In this document: positions 1-10,937 of the stretch, piece by piece
Layout: each line of letters begins with the position of its first letter
Numbering within the stretch: the stretch's first letter is position 1
Assembly: GCA_013695175.1 (NCBI GenBank)
Contig: JACDAZ010000173.1
Coordinates: 1-10,937 of the forward strand
Origin: Flavisolibacter sp.
Lineage (GTDB): Bacteria; Bacteroidota; Bacteroidia; Chitinophagales; Chitinophagaceae
Direction of reading: 5' to 3'
DNA: 10,937 nucleotides
Notes under the pieces: generated by a model
Database searches by the model: none
The model's input: the letters and a program-made list of their open reading frames with translations, nothing else
What the model was told of the DNA's origin: nothing
Translations under genes and position numbers: made by a program

Positions 1-3000
1 TCCAACACAAGCACTTCTTATATAACTTACACCATCAACTGAAACTGATAATAAATTTTCCTGATTACCACCATAACCAAATACAATATTTCTGACTAAT
101 AAATTATGAGCCACATTTATATACTGCCAATTTCGACTAGCAGAATCTAATACAATATTTTCACTTTCAGATTTTGTATTCTGATAATAATGCGATTGAT
201 TAAAACCTGGTTCATGATTTTGCAAGTAAATAAATGAAAAATTATTCCATGCAATATCACCTGCTTCCGGCACAAGTCCTACCCTCCAATAATACACGAC
301 ATTATTAGTGTACGTAACTGTGGATGGAAATTCAATAATTCCACCTATTGAATTTATCGTTTGGGAAATTTTTAAAGGGGAATTGAATTTTTCTGTTGTA
401 TCAAGTTCTAGTCTATACTGTTTAATACTACTGAATGGGTCGGCGGTAGATGCTATAAACTTAAAGCCTTGTTTGTTAACAATAGAATAGTTATACGGAT
501 ACACAGGTCTTGCCTCATCCTCATAAATATAAATTTCCTTAGTAACGGAATTGTTTGTTTCAAATAATTCATCAACTATATTATCAGCATCAACGGTTAC
601 AGTAATCTTATTCAATCCTTTATCACGTAATGGATCAATGGGTATGTTCACAATAACAGAATCAATATATCTGATTCCCGGAATGGTATCACGTGACACT
701 ATTCCTGTTGTACCATCAGGATACTCACGTTTTACTTCTACAACTATATTTTTATTTATTGCCATCCCCATATTGATCATGCTGGCATGTACCTTAAATG
801 ACTGATCAGCAATGGAAACAAAACCAGGAGTCAAGCGAACCATATTATCTTCTATTACATAATCAGGCTTTTCATGCGAATTGATTGATAAAGCTGGATC
901 TCCATGTAAACTTGTTTCTTCACACTGAGCACGGGCATATACATCAACTTCACTTTGATCAGCAAAAACTTTTTCTATTGTGGTTTTCATAATCTGACCT
1001 ATAGATTGCCCATAATGTTGATAAGTAATTCCTCTATATGACCTTGTATTATAAATATGCAAATACTCTACAATTCCAAAGTGACTGCTGGCAATAAATC
1101 CAATAGTGCCCCTGTTTGGTGCCAGCGTAAATCTTTCTGAAATAGTTTCCTTTGTTGTGAATCGAATTGTATTGTAATTATAAAAATCACCTGCATTACA
1201 ACCTAAACCAATAAATACCGGGTATTTGCCCTGGTTATTATATTGTTCAGGATTGTTTAAATTAAATTCAAGTGTAGTTGAAGAAGAGTGACCAAAATAT
1301 GTCATTAAACTAATTCCTTCTTCAAATAATTTGTCCAGCACACCTTCACTAATTTGCTGTATTGCATTTGCCGAGGTTTTTGTAAATGTGGTAACCTTGG
1401 CGCCAAATAATGTATCCTTAATAATATTAGCGTAGTTATTCATGAAGATATCAAGGGTATTTTGCAAACCCGGTTCACTTGAACCAACTATATGAACAAC
1501 ATTTTTCATCCATGCTTTATCTTTTATTAATGGAGATTGAAATTTTTGCTGCTGTTCATACTCTTTCACTTTATTTAAATAATCAGTCACCTCCTGTGGA
1601 TATATAACAGACAGCCTTCCAATGGGCGTTTTTGGTTGACTACTACCGGGGTCCGATACAAGTAACATATCGGAGGCCGGCCACCCAAAAGTTGGTACTA
1701 AATTCAACTTTTGCATATTTTGCTTCTCTGTCAAAGACCATTGTTCACTATACCGCTGGTGTACATAATGAACAGCCTTACCCAATAAAAAAACATTACT
1801 TGGAGCAACTGAAAATTTATTCCTGGAAAACATTAAAAAATTACGTAGTGCAACAGGATGATTTTTTATTCCAAATCCAAATTGATCAACAATGTCTTCA
1901 GTTAAATAAATTTTTGTATTAAATGAACCACCATTTACACTACTTCTGTATTGCCTGTAGTCTTCTACCGGATTAGCGCCATTTGCCCCTGCAAAAAGTG
2001 CAGGATGCGATATGATAATATAATCAGCCTGGTTTTGAGGCAGCATATAGTTTATAAAAGTTTTATATCCTAAAGCACCTATCTCAGATCTGTTTGCCGT
2101 TTCACCACTAATAAGAATAAGCTTTCTTTCAATAGCTGATGGCTCTAACAAAATTCTTACAAGAGAAGGATTGCTTATATCTGCTACATATCTTTTTCCA
2201 TTTGTAATATCATATAATACCGGAGCTGTGTTACCATGTGAAAATCCCGCTATTTCAAGATAATTTCCTGAACCACTTGCAGGTAACGAAAATTCAAAAT
2301 TTTTAGCTCCCCCAAAATGAAAATAACGTGGATAGGTTAATTCCAGTTTTGCAACTGCCATTCTATCCGGTCTTCTTGCAGCCAGATTATGAACCTCTAT
2401 CTGTGCTGTATTAGTACTTATCTTGACTGGACTAAATAAAGTTGAATCTCTCCTGTAATTAAAAAAGTCCATTTGATTTCCTAAAACCGAATCCCCATTT
2501 ACTCTTACCTGGTATCGACGCCTGTTATAAGCATTTCCAAGAATAGAAATTTTAAATTTTGCAGATGGTCCACTGGAATATGTGTATAGATTGGAGAAAG
2601 TATAGTTTAAAACACCGGCACTGTCAATAACCTGTGATGTAAATCCTTCACCTTCTTCATAAGATGATGAATACAAAAATTCACTTCCCACAATCTGGTA
2701 TTTCCCCGAATTTATTGAGTAATTTCTTTGATCAGGAATAACACCTCCATCCCTTACATAGTTGCCTACTGTATGCATAAAAAAAAGCTCCGGAGATAGT
2801 GTATTACCTGCAATATTATTGGTAGTGGATATTAAGCGTTTATTACTACCACTATTGGTAGTTAAAAAATAAGTAGAACTATCTGTTAATAAACTCCATT
2901 TATCATTCAATTGAAAATCTGGATTTCTATACAATGCTTTATCAGGTTTTCCATCATTATACTCCCCCCAAAACTCAATATAATCAGATGCTGAAAAAGT

Positions 3001-3246
3001 ACCGGTTGATGCAGAAGTATATATAGGCACTTCAACTCCATTTCTCCAAAGCTGAAAATCCTGTGCTTGCACGCTTCCCAGCCCTGCTGTTACTAAAATG
3101 TCATTAGATATTCTGTGAAGACCTTCTTTACCTACTTTAAATTTGTAATAGGTTTTATTATAATCTGCAATCCATTCGTTATTGTATACCTGGCTATCTG
3201 CACTTAAGCCTGATATTATCAATAAACAAACTAGAAAATTTTTCAT
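1..3246 (-). CDS. porU2: PorU-family C25 (gingipain-like) peptidase, putative T9SS sortase PorU2; 3' end beyond window
   Basis: The frame is open for 1082 codons from an ATG at 3246 to the left edge with no stop, so the C-terminus is missing. Residues 1-19 form a signal peptide (KNFLVCLLIISGLSADSQ). A large beta-rich N-terminal region precedes the C25 domain at about 405-795. That domain shows a conserved GRLSV stretch near 543, the catalytic His653 in YFGHSS, the catalytic Cys683 in GLGCNAG, and an HGDPAL motif near 781. Residues about 800-908 resemble a CARDB adhesion-like domain (INMG, DADN, VDELFETNNSV), followed by a beta-sandwich-like region with YYWRVG. PorU proteins are outer-membrane sortases that remove the C-terminal signal of T9SS cargo and attach it to lipopolysaccharide. 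The CARDB-like extension argues for the PorU2 paralogue rather than classical PorU. It lies 25 bases downstream of a PorV-like gene and is probably cotranscribed with it. C25 membership is firm; the PorU2 name and sortase role are inferred. Confidence 0.85.
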   Translation of the reverse strand, partial: MKNFLVCLLIISGLSADSQVYNNEWIADYNKTYYKFKVGKEGLHRISNDILVTAGLGSVQAQDFQLWRNGVEVPIYTSASTGTFSASDYIEFWGEYNDGKPDKALYRNPDFQLNDKWSLLTDSSTYFLTTNSGSNKRLISTTNNIAGNTLSPELFFMHTVGNYVRDGGVIPDQRNYSINSGKYQIVGSEFLYSSSYEEGEGFTSQVIDSAGVLNYTFSNLYTYSSGPSAKFKISILGNAYNRRRYQVRVNGDSVLGNQMDFFNYRRDSTLFSPVKISTNTAQIEVHNLAARRPDRMAVAKLELTYPRYFHFGGAKNFEFSLPASGSGNYLEIAGFSHGNTAPVLYDITNGKRYVADISNPSLVRILLEPSAIERKLILISGETANRSEIGALGYKTFINYMLPQNQADYIIISHPALFAGANGANPVEDYRQYRSSVNGGSFNTKIYLTEDIVDQFGFGIKNHPVALRNFLMFSRNKFSVAPSNVFLLGKAVHYVHQRYSEQWSLTEKQNMQKLNLVPTFGWPASDMLLVSDPGSSQPKTPIGRLSVIYPQEVTDYLNKVKEYEQQQKFQSPLIKDKAWMKNVVHIVGSSEPGLQNTLDIFMNNYANIIKDTLFGAKVTTFTKTSANAIQQISEGVLDKLFEEGISLMTYFGHSSSTTLEFNLNNPEQYNNQGKYPVFIGLGCNAGDFYNYNTIRFTTKETISERFTLAPNRGTIGFIASSHFGIVEYLHIYNTRSYRGITYQHYGQSIGQIMKTTIEKVFADQSEVDVYARAQCEETSLHGDPALSINSHEKPDYVIEDNMVRLTPGFVSIADQSFKVHASMINMGMAINKNIVVEVKREYPDGTTGIVSRDTIPGIRYIDSVIVNIPIDPLRDKGLNKITVTVDADNIVDELFETNNSVTKEIYIYEDEARPVYPYNYSIVNKQGFKFIASTADPFSSIKQYRLELDTTEKFNSPLKISQTINSIGGIIEFPSTVTYTNNVVYYWRVGLVPEAGDIAWNNFSFIYLQNHEPGFNQSHYYQNTKSESENIVLDSASRNWQYINVAHNLLVRNIVFGYGGNQENLLSVSVDGVSYIRSACVG

Positions 3247-3249
3247 TTG

Positions 3250-3266
3250 AGTTGGTTATAGTTGGT
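3250..3266 (-). repeat. Short direct repeat in the porV2-porU2 linker
   Basis: On the minus strand, ACCAACT occurs twice with a 10-base period just upstream of the porU2 ATG at 3246. It fills most of the 25-base linker between the two genes. There is no purine-rich Shine-Dalgarno sequence. The repeat may be incidental or may act as a translation-initiation or regulatory element; function is unknown. Confidence 0.4.
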
Positions 3267-3271
3267 ACGAA

Positions 3272-4384
3272 TTAATTTTTATTTTTTTTCTTTTTATCAT
3301 TTATCAAATCAACCTGTAAAGAAAAAACATGGGTATATAATGAACTTGATTGATTAGCCAAATTAGTAAGTGCATAATCTATACGAACATTTTGAAGTTT
3401 AAATCCTGCCCCTACACTGGGTTGATAAATCCAAACTTTAGTTTGATTGAGCGTATCCTTATCCGCCAGTGCCTGTTGAAAATTATTAATGCCCCCCCTT
3501 ATAAAAAGTACCTTATTGATGCTTGCTTCAACACCTAGTTTAGGATCAATGCTTACAGGGTTGGAACTGATTACTGTATTGCGCTTGCCATCAAATGTAA
3601 AATCAAGATTTGCTTCTGCTAAAAGACCTACTGATTTACTTAATGAAAACTCACGGGCCACACCAGCCACTAATCTTGGGGCCGTCATTTCAGTAGATTT
3701 TACCGGAATATCATTATTAGTCAGATATAATACTTCCTTTTCTCTTTCAGTAAAATTGAATGACCATGAATTAAAAGTGGTAGTTATGTCACGACCTGCA
3801 AATCCAAATCTCCATTTATTTGATTCTATCTGTAACCCTGCATCAAGTCCAAAACCCCATGCTTTTGCAAATGTGCCAACACTCCTGTGTATAATTTTAG
3901 CATTTACTCCAAAATGAATATTTTTCTTTTCAGATTGCTTAAGAGTCTGACCCAAAGAAACAAGAAAAGCATAATCGGCAGAACTGAATTCCTTAATGTT
4001 GTTATAATTGATAGTACCATCTGGTTCCACTAAAAATAAAGTATTGGGTATGTCGTCAACAGCAAAACGTATAGCAGTTATACCAAGGGTTCTTTTATTA
4101 CCTGCCATAGGAAAAGCCAGGCTGGCATAATCAAATTTACCTATACCTGAAAAATATTCAGCATGCATTAAGTTAGCTGAGGCATTGTCTTTTACTCCTG
4201 TAAGTCCCGCAGGATTCCAATAGCCTGCAGTACCATCTTTTACAGAGGCTACCTGGGCACTTCCCATAGCAAGTCCGCGGGCACCAACACCAATATTTAA
4301 AAATTCATTTGAATATTTTCGAAATTGGGCTTGTGAGTTTAAAGACAATAAAATGATGAAAAAGAAGCAGAGGTGGATTCTCAT
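3272..4384 (-). CDS. porV2: PorV/PorQ-family outer-membrane barrel protein, putative PorV2
   Basis: This is a 370-residue protein starting at the ATG at 4384. I chose this start because it gives a clean signal peptide (MRIHLCFFFIILLSLNSQAQ, cleavage after residue 20). The frame stays open 64 codons further upstream to 4576, but that stretch looks non-coding and would cover the whole tyrS leader; an intermediate ATG at 4429 is the next best choice. The mature start carries the family hallmark IGVGARGLAMGSAQVA followed by GYWNPAGL (residues 31-61). Alternating beta-strands follow, as expected of a FadL-like outer-membrane barrel. PorV shuttles T9SS cargo to the PorU sortase, and here the gene sits directly upstream of a PorU-like gene. 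That pairing supports a dedicated PorV2/PorU2 function. The C-terminus is a lysine/asparagine tail (KKKKNKN) rather than a terminal aromatic. Family assignment is strong; the V2 subtype is inferred from context. Confidence 0.82.
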   Translation of the reverse strand: MRIHLCFFFIILLSLNSQAQFRKYSNEFLNIGVGARGLAMGSAQVASVKDGTAGYWNPAGLTGVKDNASANLMHAEYFSGIGKFDYASLAFPMAGNKRTLGITAIRFAVDDIPNTLFLVEPDGTINYNNIKEFSSADYAFLVSLGQTLKQSEKKNIHFGVNAKIIHRSVGTFAKAWGFGLDAGLQIESNKWRFGFAGRDITTTFNSWSFNFTEREKEVLYLTNNDIPVKSTEMTAPRLVAGVAREFSLSKSVGLLAEANLDFTFDGKRNTVISSNPVSIDPKLGVEASINKVLFIRGGINNFQQALADKDTLNQTKVWIYQPSVGAGFKLQNVRIDYALTNLANQSSSLYTHVFSLQVDLINDKKKKNKN

Positions 4385-4445
4385 CTGGTTTAATTTCAGG
4401 AAGGAAATGGTGGTGTAAAGTTGGTTCATAAGGATAGGCTGGCGA

Positions 4446-4453
4446 CAAAAATA
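4446..4453 (-). promoter_or_regulatory. Candidate Bacteroidota -7 box for porV2-porU2
   Basis: Read on the minus strand this is TATTTTTG, matching the Bacteroidota -7 consensus TAnnTTTG. It would place a transcription start near 4439, about 55 bases before the chosen porV2 ATG. No good -33 TTG is seen at the usual distance, so support is motif position only. Confidence 0.3.
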
Positions 4454-4555
4454 CTCTTTTGAAGCAGAAATCCTAAGTTTTTCGCCGGAAATCATTGAGG
4501 TTCTAAAACGTTTATATAAAGATAAAATTGCATTAAAAACAAACTTACGCTGACT

Positions 4556-4563
4556 TACTTTTG
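4556..4563 (+). promoter_or_regulatory. Candidate Bacteroidota -7 box for tyrS
   Basis: TACTTTTG matches TAnnTTTG and lies 19 bases before the tyrS ATG, implying a very short 5' leader. A TTG occurs at 4528-4530, but the 25-base spacer is longer than usual. The leader has no T-box-like GGUACC antiterminator element. Confidence 0.33.
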
Positions 4564-4582
4564 CCTTTAAAAGCAAATTTTG

Positions 4583-5860
4583 ATGAATTTGATTGAAGAA
4601 TTACGCTGGAGAGGACTAATTCACGATATTATGCCTGGGACTGAAGAGCAGTTATCAAAAGAGATGACGACAGGATACGTAGGTTTTGATCCTACGGCTG
4701 ACAGCTTGCATATTGGAAGTTTGGTGCCCATAATATTATTGGTTCACATGCAAAAAGCCGGGCATAAACCCATTGCTTTAATCGGCGGCGCTACCGGCAT
4801 GATTGGCGACCCTTCAGGTAAAAGTGAGGAAAGAAATCTTTTAAGTGAAGAAACCCTTAATGAGAATATCAACGGCATCAAAATACAATTGAGTCGATTT
4901 CTCGATTTCAGCTCAAAGCAGCCAAACAGTGCTGAACTGGTCAATAATTATGACTGGTTTAAACCAATATCTTTTATAGATTTTTTGCGTGATGTGGGTA
5001 AACACATAACTATAAATTATATGATGGCAAAGGATAGCGTAAAAAAACGTATTGAAGGAGAAACAGGCATAAGCTATACAGAATTTGCTTATCAACTCAT
5101 GCAGGGATATGATTTTTTATGGCTGTATCAAAACAAAAACTGCAAACTTCAATTTGGCGGCAGCGACCAGTGGGGTAATATGACAACCGGTGCAGAATTA
5201 GTAAGGCGTAAAGCTGCCGGTGAGGCTTTTGTTTTTACCAATCCTCTTATCACAAAATCTGATGGCGGAAAATTTGGAAAAACTGAAAAAGGAAATATCT
5301 GGCTGGATGCATCAAAAACATCTCCTTACCAATTTTACCAATTTTGGCTAAATGCAGCCGATGCAGATGCAGAAAAATGGATCAGGATATTTACATTCAT
5401 GCCTCATAATGAAATATTATCTGTTATAAAAGAACATGAAGCAGATCCATCGCAAAGAATAGTTCAAAAGCGATTAGCTGAAGAGGTAACAAAGTTTGTT
5501 CATGGTGAAGAAGAATTAAAAAAAGCTATCACTACCACCCAAAAATTATTTGATAAACAACATGCACCTGCCGAATATTTAACTGTTGAAGATTTGGAGA
5601 GTATGGAAGGTATTGTAAAAGTAAATTACGAGAAGATGAAACTGGAATCAGGTGTTGAAATTGTAAATTTCCTGGCAGAAACAATGATCTTACCCAGTAA
5701 AGGAGAAGCGAGAAAAATGGTTCAAAACAGTGGTATAAGCATCAACAGAAAAAAAGTAGATACGCAGGCATTTAAGGTGCAGATGTCCAACCTGCTACAT
5801 GATAAATACATACTGGTGCAAAAGGGAAAGAAAAATTATTACCTGGTAGAAGCTGTATAA
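4583..5860 (+). CDS. tyrS: Tyrosyl-tRNA synthetase
   Basis: This is a class Ic aminoacyl-tRNA synthetase that charges tRNA-Tyr with tyrosine in the cytoplasm using ATP. The protein has 425 residues, close to the 424 of E. coli TyrRS. The Rossmann catalytic domain has YVGFDPTADSLHIGS (HIGH-type motif HIGS at 43-46), the tyrosine-pocket region with QLMQGYDF and QFGGSDQWGN (about 171-199), and the KMSKS-equivalent KFGKT at 230-234. An anticodon-binding segment and a C-terminal S4 RNA-binding domain (about 360-420, with KGEARKMVQNSGISIN) follow. I chose the ATG at 4583 over the in-frame TTG at 4580. The gene is divergent from porV2, with 198 bases between the two ATGs. Its TAA stop directly touches the stop of the convergent cyanophycinase gene. 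It looks intact and is essential housekeeping. Confidence 0.97.
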   Translation: MNLIEELRWRGLIHDIMPGTEEQLSKEMTTGYVGFDPTADSLHIGSLVPIILLVHMQKAGHKPIALIGGATGMIGDPSGKSEERNLLSEETLNENINGIKIQLSRFLDFSSKQPNSAELVNNYDWFKPISFIDFLRDVGKHITINYMMAKDSVKKRIEGETGISYTEFAYQLMQGYDFLWLYQNKNCKLQFGGSDQWGNMTTGAELVRRKAAGEAFVFTNPLITKSDGGKFGKTEKGNIWLDASKTSPYQFYQFWLNAADADAEKWIRIFTFMPHNEILSVIKEHEADPSQRIVQKRLAEEVTKFVHGEEELKKAITTTQKLFDKQHAPAEYLTVEDLESMEGIVKVNYEKMKLESGVEIVNFLAETMILPSKGEARKMVQNSGISINRKKVDTQAFKVQMSNLLHDKYILVQKGKKNYYLVEAV

Positions 5861-6754
5861 TTATTCTGTAATGACCTGCTTTTTTATTACTGCACCCTCC
5901 CTGGCTTCCATTAAAAATTTTCTGTCCTGTAGTATATATCCGTTTCCTTTTTCACAAAAATGAACTTTCAAATTCTCAATAGAAACAGGATTTCCATCAG
6001 GTATATCTCCAATATTAGAATGTCTTATTTCATGACCATCAATAATAATAACCAACCCGCTGCCAATAGCTTCCATTATATTTCCTTCTGTTATCAGCAT
6101 GCCCGTATCTTCTCCCAAACCAATACCAATACAGGATGGATTACAGGCAACTGCCTGTGCAAGCCTTCCAAATCTTCCTCTTTTTTCAAAATGAGAATCT
6201 ATAATTACGTCATCTATTAAACCTAGGCCTGTTGTTATTTTTACCTCCCCTTTTAAGTGTGCCCGTGTTGAATTTCCCTCATAGATCATAGTATTACTCA
6301 TAGCCATTGCTCCGGCAGAAGTTCCTGATATTACAAAATTTTCATTGTGATAACGATCCAGTAGAATGCGAAGAAAATCAGTACCACCAAATATTGAAGA
6401 AAGACGCATTTGGTTACCCCCGGTAAACATAACTGCGTCACAGTTCTTTAGGGAGTCAATATGTTCCTGCTTTGTTGCATCATACCTGTTCCTGATATCC
6501 ATTACACCAATATTAATGCAACCTATTTTACCAAATGCATTTATGTAATTGTTGCCCGTTTCATAAGGTATCATAGAAGCAGTAGTCACAATTTCTATCC
6601 GGGCTTTATTACCACCTGCTTCTTCAACAAACCTCCTTAAAATGCCAAGCTCAAAGAAATTAAGATTATTCCTGTGAATCTCTCCTTTCTCCAGGTCAGT
6701 GCCTTTATCTTCTGCACCGCCAATTGCTATTAGTTTCCCTTTGGGTTTATTCAT
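5861..6754 (-). CDS. cphB: Cyanophycinase (peptidase family S51)
   Basis: This is a 297-residue protein from the ATG at 6754; the TTG codon just before it is an unlikely start. Cyanophycinase hydrolyses the storage polymer cyanophycin (multi-L-arginyl-poly-L-aspartate) to beta-Asp-Arg dipeptides. S51 signatures are clear: an N-terminal GKLIAIGGAEDK, the VMFTGGNQMRL turn, the nucleophile Ser146 in SGTSAGA, His188 in DSHFEKRGRFGRL, and Glu215 in GIGLGEDTG. These correspond to the Ser-His-Glu catalytic residues of cyanobacterial CphB. It is slightly longer than the 271-residue Synechocystis enzyme. No signal peptide is visible, so the enzyme is probably cytoplasmic. It lies 50 bases downstream of an aminotransferase-like gene on the same strand and probably shares its transcript. 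No cyanophycin synthetase or isoaspartyl dipeptidase is nearby, so the true substrate could be imported or locally made polymer, or another beta-aspartyl peptide. Confidence 0.93.
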   Translation of the reverse strand: MNKPKGKLIAIGGAEDKGTDLEKGEIHRNNLNFFELGILRRFVEEAGGNKARIEIVTTASMIPYETGNNYINAFGKIGCINIGVMDIRNRYDATKQEHIDSLKNCDAVMFTGGNQMRLSSIFGGTDFLRILLDRYHNENFVISGTSAGAMAMSNTMIYEGNSTRAHLKGEVKITTGLGLIDDVIIDSHFEKRGRFGRLAQAVACNPSCIGIGLGEDTGMLITEGNIMEAIGSGLVIIIDGHEIRHSNIGDIPDGNPVSIENLKVHFCEKGNGYILQDRKFLMEAREGAVIKKQVITE

Positions 6755-6776
6755 CAATCTTCTTCTTCTGTTTCTA

Positions 6777-6804: not shown

Positions 6805-8100
6805 TTAGCTTTTTGCGAATTCTCTGATGCCTTTAACCAAAATATCAAGATTTGCAGTAGTAGTATACACATTTGGTGTTACTCTTACTCCTTTTATATT
6901 TTCCCATTCTATACCTACTGTATGAATTTTATATTTATTCATTAAAAAACTGTCCAAATCACCGGGCTTCTTTCCTTCTACAGAAACCATTCCTATTGCA
7001 CCGCCCCATTTAGGATCTAATGAAGTGTGGAGCTTTACTTTTGTTTCATCCTTTACCTTTTGCATCCAGTAATTCTTCAAATAATGCAGACGCTTTTCTT
7101 TTCTTTCACTGCCAATCATATGGTGAAATTCAAGTGCTTTTCCTATTGCTTGTTCAATAAAAAAAGGCCTGGTTCCTAAGTGTTCAAACTTCCTGATATC
7201 ATCTTTTAATGGCTCACCTGAAGCAAATAAGGGATAAAGATTTTTAATCTTTTCTTTTCTTACATAAAGCAAACCACTACCTATAGGTGCATACAACCAT
7301 TTGTGGAGGCTGCTGGCAAAATAATCTGCATTTAAAGAAGGTATGGTAAAATTTATATGCGCAAAGCTATGTGCACCATCCACTAAAACTTCTATGCCTC
7401 TTTTTTTAGCTTCATCAGCAATACGCTCTACCGGTAAAATTTGCCCGTTCCAGTTGATAATATGCGTTATGTGTACTACTTTGGTTTTAGGTGTAAATGC
7501 ATTTACATATTGTTGTACCAAATAGTTTTCATCATCTGAAGGCAATTCAAGATTGATCCATTTTAATTTGATGTTATCTCTCAACTCTCTTTGCTTCCAT
7601 GCATTCACCATATTTGGATAATCCTGCTTTGCCGCTACTACTTCATCGCCTGGTTTTAATGGCAAGCCAAATATCACTGTCTCTAATCCTTCTGAAGAAT
7701 TCCTATTGATAGCTATTTCTTCGGCAGATGTACCAGCTAATTGTGCCAGGTTTTCTCTCAAAGTTTCTCTTCCCTGGTCCAGTATCCTCCACATATAATA
7801 ACTGGGAGCTTCATTACTATAATCGTAATATCTTTTCATGGCATCCTGCACTGTTTTTGGAGCAGGAGAAACACCACCATTATTCAGGTTAATGAGTGAA
7901 GGAGAAACAGTAAATGCCTGTTGTATATAATACCAAAAGTCATCATCGGACGCTAATTCATCCGGTGATATGGATTCTGAAATTTTTAAAGCTTTTTCAA
8001 GATTACGACTCCAAGCCGGCTGAAGAAAAGAAGAAAATAAAGCTGTTGCTGAAACTAAACTTGCTTTATTTAAAAAAGATCGACGGTTTACCATGCTCAT
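6805..8100 (-). CDS. Tat-exported PLP-dependent class V aminotransferase-fold enzyme
   Basis: This is a 431-residue protein of the class V aminotransferase / isopenicillin-N-epimerase-like / cysteine-desulfurase superfamily. The N-terminus is a twin-arginine signal, NRRSFLNKAS at residues 5-14, followed by a hydrophobic segment (LVSATALFSSFL). This predicts export of a folded, cofactor-loaded enzyme to the periplasm or cell surface. The mature part has an N-terminal INLNNGG (about 70-76), NRNSSEGLETVIFGL (about 132-146), the PLP-ring aspartate Asp241 and His244 in VLVDGAH, and the Schiff-base Lys267 in SSLHKWL. The motif GSGLLYVRKEKI follows. A C-terminal small domain ends near 430. The ATG two codons downstream (MVNRRSF) is an equally possible start. 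The actual reaction (epimerase, desulfurase or lyase) cannot be read from the sequence. It precedes cphB by 50 bases, which may or may not reflect shared amino-acid metabolism. Confidence 0.9.
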   Translation of the reverse strand: MSMVNRRSFLNKASLVSATALFSSFLQPAWSRNLEKALKISESISPDELASDDDFWYYIQQAFTVSPSLINLNNGGVSPAPKTVQDAMKRYYDYSNEAPSYYMWRILDQGRETLRENLAQLAGTSAEEIAINRNSSEGLETVIFGLPLKPGDEVVAAKQDYPNMVNAWKQRELRDNIKLKWINLELPSDDENYLVQQYVNAFTPKTKVVHITHIINWNGQILPVERIADEAKKRGIEVLVDGAHSFAHINFTIPSLNADYFASSLHKWLYAPIGSGLLYVRKEKIKNLYPLFASGEPLKDDIRKFEHLGTRPFFIEQAIGKALEFHHMIGSERKEKRLHYLKNYWMQKVKDETKVKLHTSLDPKWGGAIGMVSVEGKKPGDLDSFLMNKYKIHTVGIEWENIKGVRVTPNVYTTTANLDILVKGIREFAKS

Positions 8101-8204: not shown

Positions 8205-8735
8205 TCAAAAGGTGAATTTCGCCAGTTTTTGAGGAAAATCTAATTTGTAACTTTTACGCGTGCCATTCACCAAAACATGCATAATATTTATTTGCTTGTC
8301 TGTAAGATCCTGCAAAAGTGAGTTTGATACCTGGAGAGATTTAATTGAAGAAACATTAAGCATTTCAAAATAACAAAAAACTGATTCACTGTCTTTTTCA
8401 TACCCAATAAATTCCAGATTACCTGTTTTTTGATTGGGCGCAATATTTAAGTTTTTCCTGATATAGTCTGATATCAGTTTATCATTTTTTAGCTGTTGCT
8501 TACTGTCACTTAAATTGACCGGGGTATTAAAATTTAGTTTCAATACATCTTCCATATCATCAATAAAAATCTTACAAGTTATCTCAAGGGTTTTTTCTTT
8601 TTGATTGTGGTTGATTTCAGTTACACTTACATAATAAGGATGCACTGCAATTTTTTCTATACCATCAATAGCAGCAGAAGGTGCAGGCATAAAATGCATT
8701 ATAAGAAAAAATACTTTATAAACTAAAACACCCAT
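8205..8735 (-). CDS. DUF6702-family secreted protein of unknown function
   Basis: This is a 176-residue protein with an N-terminal hydrophobic signal segment (VLVYKVFFLIMHFMPAPSAA, residues 3-22), so it is probably periplasmic. The pattern matches the Bacteroidota DUF6702 family: HPYYVSVTEI (32-41), an LEITCKIFIDDMEDVLK block (50-66), an isolated YIRKNL helix near 91, then FIGYEKDSESVFCYFEM (109-125) and NSLLQDLTDKQINIMHV (138-154) near the end. The fold is probably a compact beta-sandwich. The invariant His-Pro and the acidic DDMED cluster are possible metal or ligand contacts, but this is conjecture. It ends in TGA, unlike the TAA of the other complete genes. It is transcribed divergently from the HupE-like gene, with 81 bases between starts, suggesting shared control. 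The biochemical function is unknown. Confidence 0.82.
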   Translation of the reverse strand: MGVLVYKVFFLIMHFMPAPSAAIDGIEKIAVHPYYVSVTEINHNQKEKTLEITCKIFIDDMEDVLKLNFNTPVNLSDSKQQLKNDKLISDYIRKNLNIAPNQKTGNLEFIGYEKDSESVFCYFEMLNVSSIKSLQVSNSLLQDLTDKQINIMHVLVNGTRKSYKLDFPQKLAKFTF

Positions 8736-8816
8736 TTATACTAAATTATTTTTCTGTTACAAAAGTCTGCTTTATTTTGACAGCCTATTACTACAAAAGG
8801 TTAAGATTGGATTTGC

Positions 8817-9389
8817 ATGGAATTGAACTATTTTCTGGAAGGTTGGAAACATATAATAAGCATAGATGCAATTGATCACCTGCTGTTTATACTGGCTCTT
8901 GCAGCCTTGTACACACTTAAAGATTGGAAACAGGTTCTTATACTTGTAACTGCATTTACTGTAGGACATTCTATTACGCTTGCTTTAAGTACTTTAGAAA
9001 TAATTAGCTTAAATACCGATCTGGTAGAGTTTTTGATCCCTTGTACTATTGTTATTACAGCTATCAGTAATTTATTTCAAAAGGAGCTGAATCCGAAAAC
9101 AGTTTATACAAATTATTTCCTGGCTTTATTCTTTGGATTGATCCATGGATTAGGTTTTGCAAATACTTTACGATTTATTAAAGCAAGTGATGAAAGACTG
9201 GGATGGGTGCTTTTGAAATTTAATATTGGGCTTGAATCAGGTCAAATTGTTGTAGTTATTGCAATTTTACTTGTAGCACAATTTTTTATACACTATTTAA
9301 GAGTAAACCGTCGTTACTGGCTTTTTGCTATTTCCGGCGTAGCATTGATTGCTTCTTTAAAAATGGCTATTGAACGTTTTCCATATTAA
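8817..9389 (+). CDS. HupE/UreJ-like integral membrane protein (possible metal transporter)
   Basis: This 190-residue hydrophobic protein has about six predicted membrane segments (roughly 19-35, 39-57, 68-86, 98-115, 130-155 and 165-182). HupE/UreJ_2 family signatures are present: GWKHIISIDAIDHLLFILAL with His12, Asp17 and His21; FTVGHSITL with His51; FFGLIHGLGFA with His110; and FNIGLESGQ with Glu140 and Gln143. These buried His and acidic residues are those expected to handle a divalent metal. HupE and UreJ proteins elsewhere are linked to nickel supply for hydrogenase or urease, but neither enzyme is in the window, so the substrate is open. It lacks the signal peptide and long periplasmic segment of larger HupE forms. 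It is divergent from the DUF6702 gene and followed after 13 bases by the M1 peptidase gene, probably in one operon. Confidence 0.88.
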   Translation: MELNYFLEGWKHIISIDAIDHLLFILALAALYTLKDWKQVLILVTAFTVGHSITLALSTLEIISLNTDLVEFLIPCTIVITAISNLFQKELNPKTVYTNYFLALFFGLIHGLGFANTLRFIKASDERLGWVLLKFNIGLESGQIVVVIAILLVAQFFIHYLRVNRRYWLFAISGVALIASLKMAIERFPY

Positions 9390-9402
9390 ACCCCTATAAC
9401 AA

Positions 9403-10788
9403 ATGAAGAGAATCATTTATGTTTTTCTGGCTTTACTTCCTTTTTCTTATTTATTTGCACAGAACATTCAAAACAATCCAGGTTCAAATCACGGAAACAA
9501 ATTTGAACAATTAGGCACTATTTTACCTACCCCTAATGAATACAGAACAGCAAGTGGAGCTCCCGGTCCAAAATACTGGCAGCAAAGGGCAGATTACAAT
9601 ATCAAATGTGAGCTTGATGAAAAAAATATGAGGCTTACCGGTAGTGAAACCATAACTTATTTTAATAATTCACCCGACATTCTTCGCTATTTGTGGTTTC
9701 AGCTTGATGAAAATGAACACAGCTCAGTAAATAATGCCAATTATCAAACCAGTTCCACAATCCCCAGGCAGGCAACAGCTCAAATGCTGACGAATCTGGA
9801 AAAGCAAAGAACTGATAATGGATTTGGATTCAATATCTTAAAAGTAGCAGATGCTACAGGCAAAGCTTTACCATATGTGATAAACAAAACCATGATGCGT
9901 GTTGATCTGCCACAAGAATTAAAACCAGGTCAAAAGTTTGTAATAAATATTAATTGGAACTATAATATTCCTGATCGCATGGTGCAGGGTGGCAGAGGTG
10001 GATCTGAATTTTTTCCAGAAGATGGCAATCACCTATTTACAATAGCTCAATGGTATCCACGCCTATGCGTATACAGCGATTTCCAGGGCTGGCAGAATCA
10101 CCAGTTTACAGGACGTGGAGAGTTTGCATTAACATTTGGAAATTTTAAGGTACAAATGACGGTGCCTGCTGATCACATAGTTGCATCTACAGGTGAATGT
10201 CAAAACTATGCACTAAACCTAACACCAACACAGCTTTCACGTTGGCAAAAAGCACAAACGGCTAAAGAGCCTGTTGAAATAGTAACCTTAGCTGATGCAA
10301 AAGCTGCTGAAACAAAAAAAAGTACAGCTAAAAAAACCTGGATTTATACAGCCAATAATGTTCGTGATTTTGCCTGGACATCCAGCCGCAAGTATGCCTG
10401 GGATGCTATGCCTACATATGTAGAAGGAAAGAAGATTATGGCAATGAGCTATTATCCAAAAGAAGCTTATGGTTTATACCGTCCTTTTTCTACAAGAGCA
10501 GTTGCACATACTATACAGGTTTATTCAAAGTTTTCTATTCCATACCCTTATCCGGTTGCTATTAGTGTAGAGGCTGCCAATGGCATGGAATACCCGATGA
10601 TCTGCTTTAATTATGGACGTACTCATGAAGATGGAACTTATACAGAAGCAACAAAATATGGTATGATTGGAGTGATCATTCATGAAGTTGGACACAATTT
10701 TTTCCCCATGATTATTAACTCCGATGAGCGGCAGTGGACATGGTTTGATGAAGGTTTGAATACATTTGTACAATACCTCACAGAATAA
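9403..10788 (+). CDS. Secreted M1-family zinc metallopeptidase, interrupted by in-frame TAA
   Basis: This is a gluzincin aminopeptidase-like protein of the M1 family. A signal peptide at residues 1-20 (MKRIIYVFLALLPFSYLFAQ) predicts export. A beta-sandwich N-terminal domain (about 45-260) includes YWQQRADYNIKCELDE. The catalytic domain has the GAMEN-equivalent NGMEYP (393-398) and perfect zinc ligands, HEVGH at 427-431 and Glu450 in WFDEGLNTF, spaced HEXXH-X18-E. The frame stops at codon 462 (TAA). However, recognisable M1 sequence continues in the same frame to the window edge, so this is a broken or recoded gene rather than a naturally short protein. A product ending here would lack the presumed catalytic tyrosine and the whole C-terminal helical domain, and would probably be inactive. 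It lies 13 bases after the HupE-like gene, suggesting cotranscription. M1 identity is firm; the peptide substrates are unknown. Confidence 0.9.
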   Translation: MKRIIYVFLALLPFSYLFAQNIQNNPGSNHGNKFEQLGTILPTPNEYRTASGAPGPKYWQQRADYNIKCELDEKNMRLTGSETITYFNNSPDILRYLWFQLDENEHSSVNNANYQTSSTIPRQATAQMLTNLEKQRTDNGFGFNILKVADATGKALPYVINKTMMRVDLPQELKPGQKFVININWNYNIPDRMVQGGRGGSEFFPEDGNHLFTIAQWYPRLCVYSDFQGWQNHQFTGRGEFALTFGNFKVQMTVPADHIVASTGECQNYALNLTPTQLSRWQKAQTAKEPVEIVTLADAKAAETKKSTAKKTWIYTANNVRDFAWTSSRKYAWDAMPTYVEGKKIMAMSYYPKEAYGLYRPFSTRAVAHTIQVYSKFSIPYPYPVAISVEAANGMEYPMICFNYGRTHEDGTYTEATKYGMIGVIIHEVGHNFFPMIINSDERQWTWFDEGLNTFVQYLTE

Positions 10789-10937
10789 CTTTGGGATAAC
10801 AGGTATCCTTCCCGCCGTGGGCCGGCACATTTGATTACAGATTATATGAGGCTTCCTAAAGAACAGCTGGAGCCAATTATGACTAATTCAGAAAATATTA
10901 TTCATTTTGGACCTAATGCTTATTCAAAACCGGCAAC
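10789..10937 (+). pseudogene. Downstream part of the interrupted M1 peptidase, running off the window
   Basis: Forty-nine codons continue without a stop in the same frame as the upstream peptidase, directly after the TAA at 10786-10788. The translation begins LWDNRYPSRRGPAHLITDYM and includes EPIMTNSENI and FGPNAYSKPAT. In M1 homologues the last stretch holds the transition-state tyrosine (Tyr507 in continuous numbering), 57 residues after the Glu450 zinc ligand. The usual family residue at the stop position is probably Gln (TEQLWD). An in-frame ATG at 10846 could allow re-initiation, but it has no signal peptide or plausible domain start. Frame and composition indicate one original gene. Confidence 0.8.

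Follow-up and report, generated by a model that had tools for sequence, protein, structure and literature searches.

A lone in-frame stop codon in an M1-type metallopeptidase gene of a Flavisolibacter draft genome, probably a wrong or unrepresentative consensus base

The interrupted gene and its neighbours

The window analysed here, 10,937 nucleotides in length, is an entire contig (C208) of a Flavisolibacter draft genome. Close to its end, codon 462 of about 792 in an M1-type metallopeptidase gene is an in-frame TAA, located 149 bases from the end of the contig. The reading frame stays open beyond this TAA through 49 full codons, up to the end of the window, and the base directly 3' of it is C. 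The features relevant to this region are:

8205..8735, minus strand: DUF6702 protein, the divergent neighbour (Pfam PF20420, 142.4 bits)
8817..9389, plus strand: HupE/UreJ_2 membrane protein, intact, directly upstream of the M1 gene (Pfam PF13795, 161.4 bits)
9403..10788, plus strand: first 461 codons of the M1-family metallopeptidase gene and the TAA (open reading frame list, Pfam, and 99-100% identity over 461 residues to three 792-residue proteins with PF01433)
10383..10937, plus strand: end overlap of 555 bases with contig C419 (98.6% identity, 8 substitutions, no gaps)
10681..10695, plus strand: HEVGH zinc-binding motif, residues 427-431 (position computed from the start of the reading frame)
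10750..10752, plus strand: third zinc ligand, Glu450, of the HEXXH-X18-E pattern (18 residues past HEVGH)
10786..10788, plus strand: in-frame TAA, codon 462 (read from the sequence; a Glu codon stands at the same place in C419)
10789..10937, plus strand: continuation of the gene past the stop, 49 full codons, truncated where the contig ends (all 49 encoded residues match those of the unbroken copy on C419)
10921..10923, plus strand: presumed catalytic Tyr507 (NAYSKPAT), past the stop (aligned with the Tyr of the ERAP1 SYDKG motif)

The first-pass annotation of this DNA, made from the letters alone, had reported that the TAA splits M1-like sequence, with all zinc ligands before the stop, the NAYSKPAT tyrosine after it, and an intact HupE-like gene upstream. 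These facts and their coordinates are confirmed. The zinc site is complete in the 461-residue reading frame (H427, E428, H431 and E450). M1 metallopeptidases are also marked by a GxMEN-type substrate-binding motif, of which a variant, GMEY, is present at residue 394. When the full-length homologue P0002 is used as a query against solved ERAP1 chains, Tyr507 falls opposite the tyrosine of SYDKG, which we take to be the catalytic residue of ERAP1, in a weak match (best E = 3e-4). This tyrosine beyond the zinc site is absent from the window's 461-residue product and present in the C419 copy and in the database proteins P0001, P0002 and P0003. If the interrupted allele is real, its product would break off half-way through the catalytic domain, short of the tyrosine, and should be inactive, judging from its sequence. 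The window fragment scores 22.1 bits against PF01433, below the gathering cut-off of 27.7, and the C-terminal part encoded on C419 scores 47.6 bits, above it.

The divergent DUF6702 gene, the HupE/UreJ_2 gene and the M1 gene (8205-10788) form a conserved neighbourhood. Among the 68 loci of relatives with enough flank, HupE precedes the M1 gene in 62, DUF6702 in 65, and both in 60. A 2025 paper (PMC12537917) terms DUF6702 a metal sequesterase and reports M1 peptidases as neighbours; a joint metal-handling role of DUF6702, HupE and the M1 peptidase is a testable idea. The first-pass annotation had expected that loss of the peptidase would be informative about the operon. That expectation has no basis if the stop is spurious; the arrangement of HupE and M1 as such is conserved. 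Two further pairs of adjacent genes occur elsewhere in the window: a gene for a PorU2-like sortase, truncated where the contig begins, adjoins that of a PorV2-like protein of the type IX secretion system (1-4576; NCBIfam NF052324 and NF052325), and a cyanophycinase gene (5861-6757; TIGR02069, 230.7 bits) adjoins tyrS.

An overlapping contig without the stop

Contig C419, of 5,382 bases, overlaps C208 end to end. Its codon 462 encodes Glu, and its frame runs open to codon 792, followed by TGA. The draft thus contains this stretch twice, once without the stop, as an assembly or sequencing error at this base would predict. The agreement of all residues after the stop with the uninterrupted copy is more than chance. 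The eight substitutions between the contigs comprise five synonymous third-position changes, two conservative replacements (T370A and I387V) and the stop. Compared with C419, the C208 copy has one stop only and no pseudogene decay beyond that one lesion, and the single lesion rules out an old pseudogene.

Thr370 is also found in P0001 and P0003, the Ala370 of C419 in P0002, and Ile387 in all three proteins. Since these residues recur in database proteins, the two contigs seem, the stop aside, to represent genuine strain variants. On this comparison of residues, the seven other differences look like real strain variation, and most of the C208 end would be a true haplotype. A nonsense allele could be part of that haplotype: a genuine one, of recent origin and carried by one strain of a mixed population, is possible but distinctly less probable than a faulty base. 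The C208 strain would then be predicted to make a product of 461 residues that includes the zinc ligands, lacks the catalytic tyrosine and has no peptidase activity, and other strains, represented by C419 and P0001-P0003, would retain the enzyme. The divergence of the contigs, with 8 substitutions over 555 bases and 5 of these synonymous, is of the kind seen between strains; a single lesion is what a recent event predicts; and loss might be tolerated, given that contig C366 has two or more M1 paralogues that are uninterrupted over their matched part. However, the position of the stop, so close to the contig end, speaks against a true allele, as do the relatives and the other interrupted genes described below.

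The gene order beyond the overlap bears on whether the two contigs belong together. Among the 62 loci of relatives with enough downstream flank, the esterase gene of C419 follows the M1 gene in 17 and a sortilin-like gene in 11. The whole order HupE, M1, esterase, sortilin-like, as C208 and C419 would give it when joined, occurs in L043, L051 and L052, among others. Synteny supports the two contigs as halves of one locus, short of proof and with partial support from the esterase and sortilin-like genes. We infer that they come from the same locus; a near-identical second gene copy is formally possible.

The draft genome consists of 3.20 Mb in 547 contigs, with 92.05% completeness and 4.45% contamination. 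Contig ends were compared among 102 contigs: 100 sampled ones (28 fully masked and one partly, with 481,625 of 553,423 bases readable), together with C208 and C419, which joined the set because of the finding. Most contigs were picked by number at regular steps, first every fourth and then every eighth, with C366 added and C149 wanted for its M1 paralogue. Six pairs overlap end to end, three of them exactly, over 127 bases each, and three inexactly, at 97.3-98.6% identity (367 and 411 bases at 97.3-98.3%, and the 555 bases of C208 and C419). Four other rows were not counted, three being repeat matches that touch one end and one being internal. The exact overlaps suggest a de Bruijn assembly of that word size, and the inexact ones suggest that contigs were broken off where strains differ. 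One study found assembled genomes to be more contiguous when strain heterogeneity was lower (PMC10926707). The assembler probably met two strain versions of one stretch, so that C208 ends inside the M1 gene and C419 carries the same stretch unbroken along with the rest of the gene.

Codon 462 in relatives and lone stops elsewhere in the genome

A comparison of orthologues at codon 462, proposed in the first-pass annotation, gives a sense codon in 109 of 109 loci from relatives (108 counted first and L037, initially left out). No stop lies near position 462 in the alignments of the 108 loci, nor in that of L037. The 99 distinct sequences among the 108 loci have Glu at this position in 86 cases, Gln in 8, Ser in 3, and Thr and Arg in one each. 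The origin suggested earlier, a C-to-T change in a CAA glutamine codon, is thus probably wrong, given this prevalence of Glu and the Glu codon of C419.

Database proteins agree. Among the best 120 of 7,999 matches, 117 have Glu at position 462 and two have Gln, and the remaining one is a 'partial' fragment that ends four residues earlier; none ends exactly at codon 462. P0001, P0002 and P0003 are intact at 792 residues and have Glu at 462; over the window's 461 residues they show 1, 3 and 2 differences, respectively. Seven of the best 120 of 7,999 are short (457, 481, 495, 543, 627, 677 and 757 residues). P0102, a 481-residue M1 homologue with 77% identity, stops some 20 residues beyond codon 462 although its record comes with a 366-kb contig. 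It is possibly another truncated M1 copy, and does not have the window's stop in common.

These counts bear on every reading in which the stop is genuine. For a nonsense allele, neither the loci nor the best 120 of 7,999 proteins supply a second instance. For a natural gene end at codon 462 followed by a separate gene, the two encoding a split two-chain peptidase, the open frame after the stop is as expected, but the alignment runs through without a stop in all 109 loci and the catalytic domain would be cut mid-way. Homologues that end naturally at this codon ahead of a separate downstream gene, which the first-pass annotation had named as a possible refutation, were looked for and found in 0 of 109 loci and 0 of the best 120 of 7,999 proteins. 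A natural split gene is contradicted by the relatives' alignments and is the least credible of the explanations considered.

The full enzyme would also result from readthrough, whether programmed or tolerated, or from reassignment of TAA, and both the C after the TAA and the flanking codons without decay accord with this. However, the stop is kept in none of the 109 loci, and TAA is the commonest terminator in the sampled contigs, closing 188 of 271 long coding-like frames (from a codon table that includes masked letters). Additionally, positions 10500-10937 have no Rfam match at E values up to 1, and no stop-reading tRNA is present among the 5 tRNAs of the sampled contigs, a weak test with most tRNA genes located elsewhere. 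Readthrough and code reassignment, very improbable on this evidence, are rejected on non-conservation, ordinary TAA use, and the Rfam and tRNA negatives.

Other genes of the same genome are interrupted in a similar way. With masked codons excluded, 497,944 readable bases were scanned by codon score, at a looser setting, for stops that have coding sequence directly on both sides. The scan returned five, namely the window's stop and the following four:

L138 (C149) 7061-7063: lone stop in an M1 paralogue; sense codon in 19 of 19 loci of relatives
L153 (C133) 4287-4289: lone stop in valS; sense codon in 16 of 16 aligned loci (19 tried, three unaligned there)
L195 (C366) 5587-5589: lone stop in a heptose-7-phosphate kinase gene; sense codon in 14 of 14 aligned loci (15 tried, one unaligned)
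L204 (C433) 11890-11892: lone stop in gldG; sense codon in 19 of 19 loci of relatives

In valS, the parts before and after the stop match positions 2-329 and 332-859 of an NCBIfam model of 860, and in gldG they match 4-416 and 420-552 of 552; in both cases these are consecutive parts of one model. For the kinase, the match to the NCBIfam model ends at position 274 of 315, and the tail of 43 residues gives no separate match. The interrupted valS is the only copy found in the bin, and a cell is not expected to live without this gene; the valS stop, at least, is therefore probably not real. An intact valS may sit outside the bin, which is 92% complete. These stops count against a nonsense allele in the M1 gene as well, since they fall in valS and other conserved genes whose loss would be difficult to explain.

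As a control, 400,000 bases of G003, a relative assembled as one contig, were scanned in the same way. All 4 candidates obtained are flanked by separate complete families and are thus ordinary gene borders. At a stricter setting, two stops were returned in the genome of C208 (the M1 paralogue and the kinase) and one in G003. The excess of 4 stops in about 487 kb, with the window's contig set aside, over 0 in the 400 kb of G003 is in the expected direction and statistically weak. Random single substitutions make stops in 4.9% of cases, and 15.3% of the stop-making changes are transitions; five stops are too few to tell error from mutation by the kind of change. If all five were random substitution errors, roughly 2 bases in 10,000 would be wrong.

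Interpretation and relation to known systems

We favour an error as the source of the TAA, with a strain-private nonsense allele second, because C419 is intact, near-identical database proteins are intact, and lone stops interrupt conserved genes including valS. The TAA is probably a wrong or unrepresentative base of the C208 consensus rather than a property of the organism. Since an overlapping contig of the same draft has the gene unbroken, it is most likely an error and at best a rare strain variant. Within this explanation, the odd base more likely stems from an error of sequencing or assembly than from a true rare allele. The lone stop in valS, which should be indispensable, likewise points to base errors, in an assembly that is fragmented and mixes strains. 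The gene of the population would then be, as a likely prediction, an ordinary 792-residue secreted M1-type metallopeptidase.

The first-pass annotation had listed a recent nonsense mutation, an error and readthrough side by side. From that list, error emerges as the best account and a strain allele as the second, and readthrough finds no support in the 109 loci. A composite reading can also be framed, in which the C208 strain has a true stop and makes two forms, for the most part an inactive zinc-binding 461-residue fragment and a little full-length peptidase through inefficient termination at TAAC, and in which a leaky-termination or suppressor background lets the strain tolerate the other lone stops, including that in valS. 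Such a combination seems highly unlikely.

As a finding, the stop is ordinary, and its use is as a caution: when a lone in-frame stop lies near a contig end in a draft from a mixed population, the other contigs of the bin should be checked before the gene is called broken or recoded. The case resembles short-read metagenome-assembled genomes with consensus errors in its fragmented bin, its inexact end overlaps and its lone stops in indispensable genes, and no trait was found that sets C208 apart from the consensus errors and strain-split ends of such genomes. The protein, for its part, resembles the M1 metallopeptidases (PF01433) of Chitinophagaceae and other Bacteroidota in its HEXXH-X18-E pattern, GMEY and downstream tyrosine, and in a length of about 790-800 residues with a signal-peptide-like start. 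Its C-terminal part is 72-78% identical to those of same-genus relatives, and its N-terminal part reaches up to 78% identity in named genomes (for example, a Niastella metagenome-assembled genome and Cnuella takakiae). The sole difference of the C208 copy from these Bacteroidota enzymes is the lone stop at codon 462.
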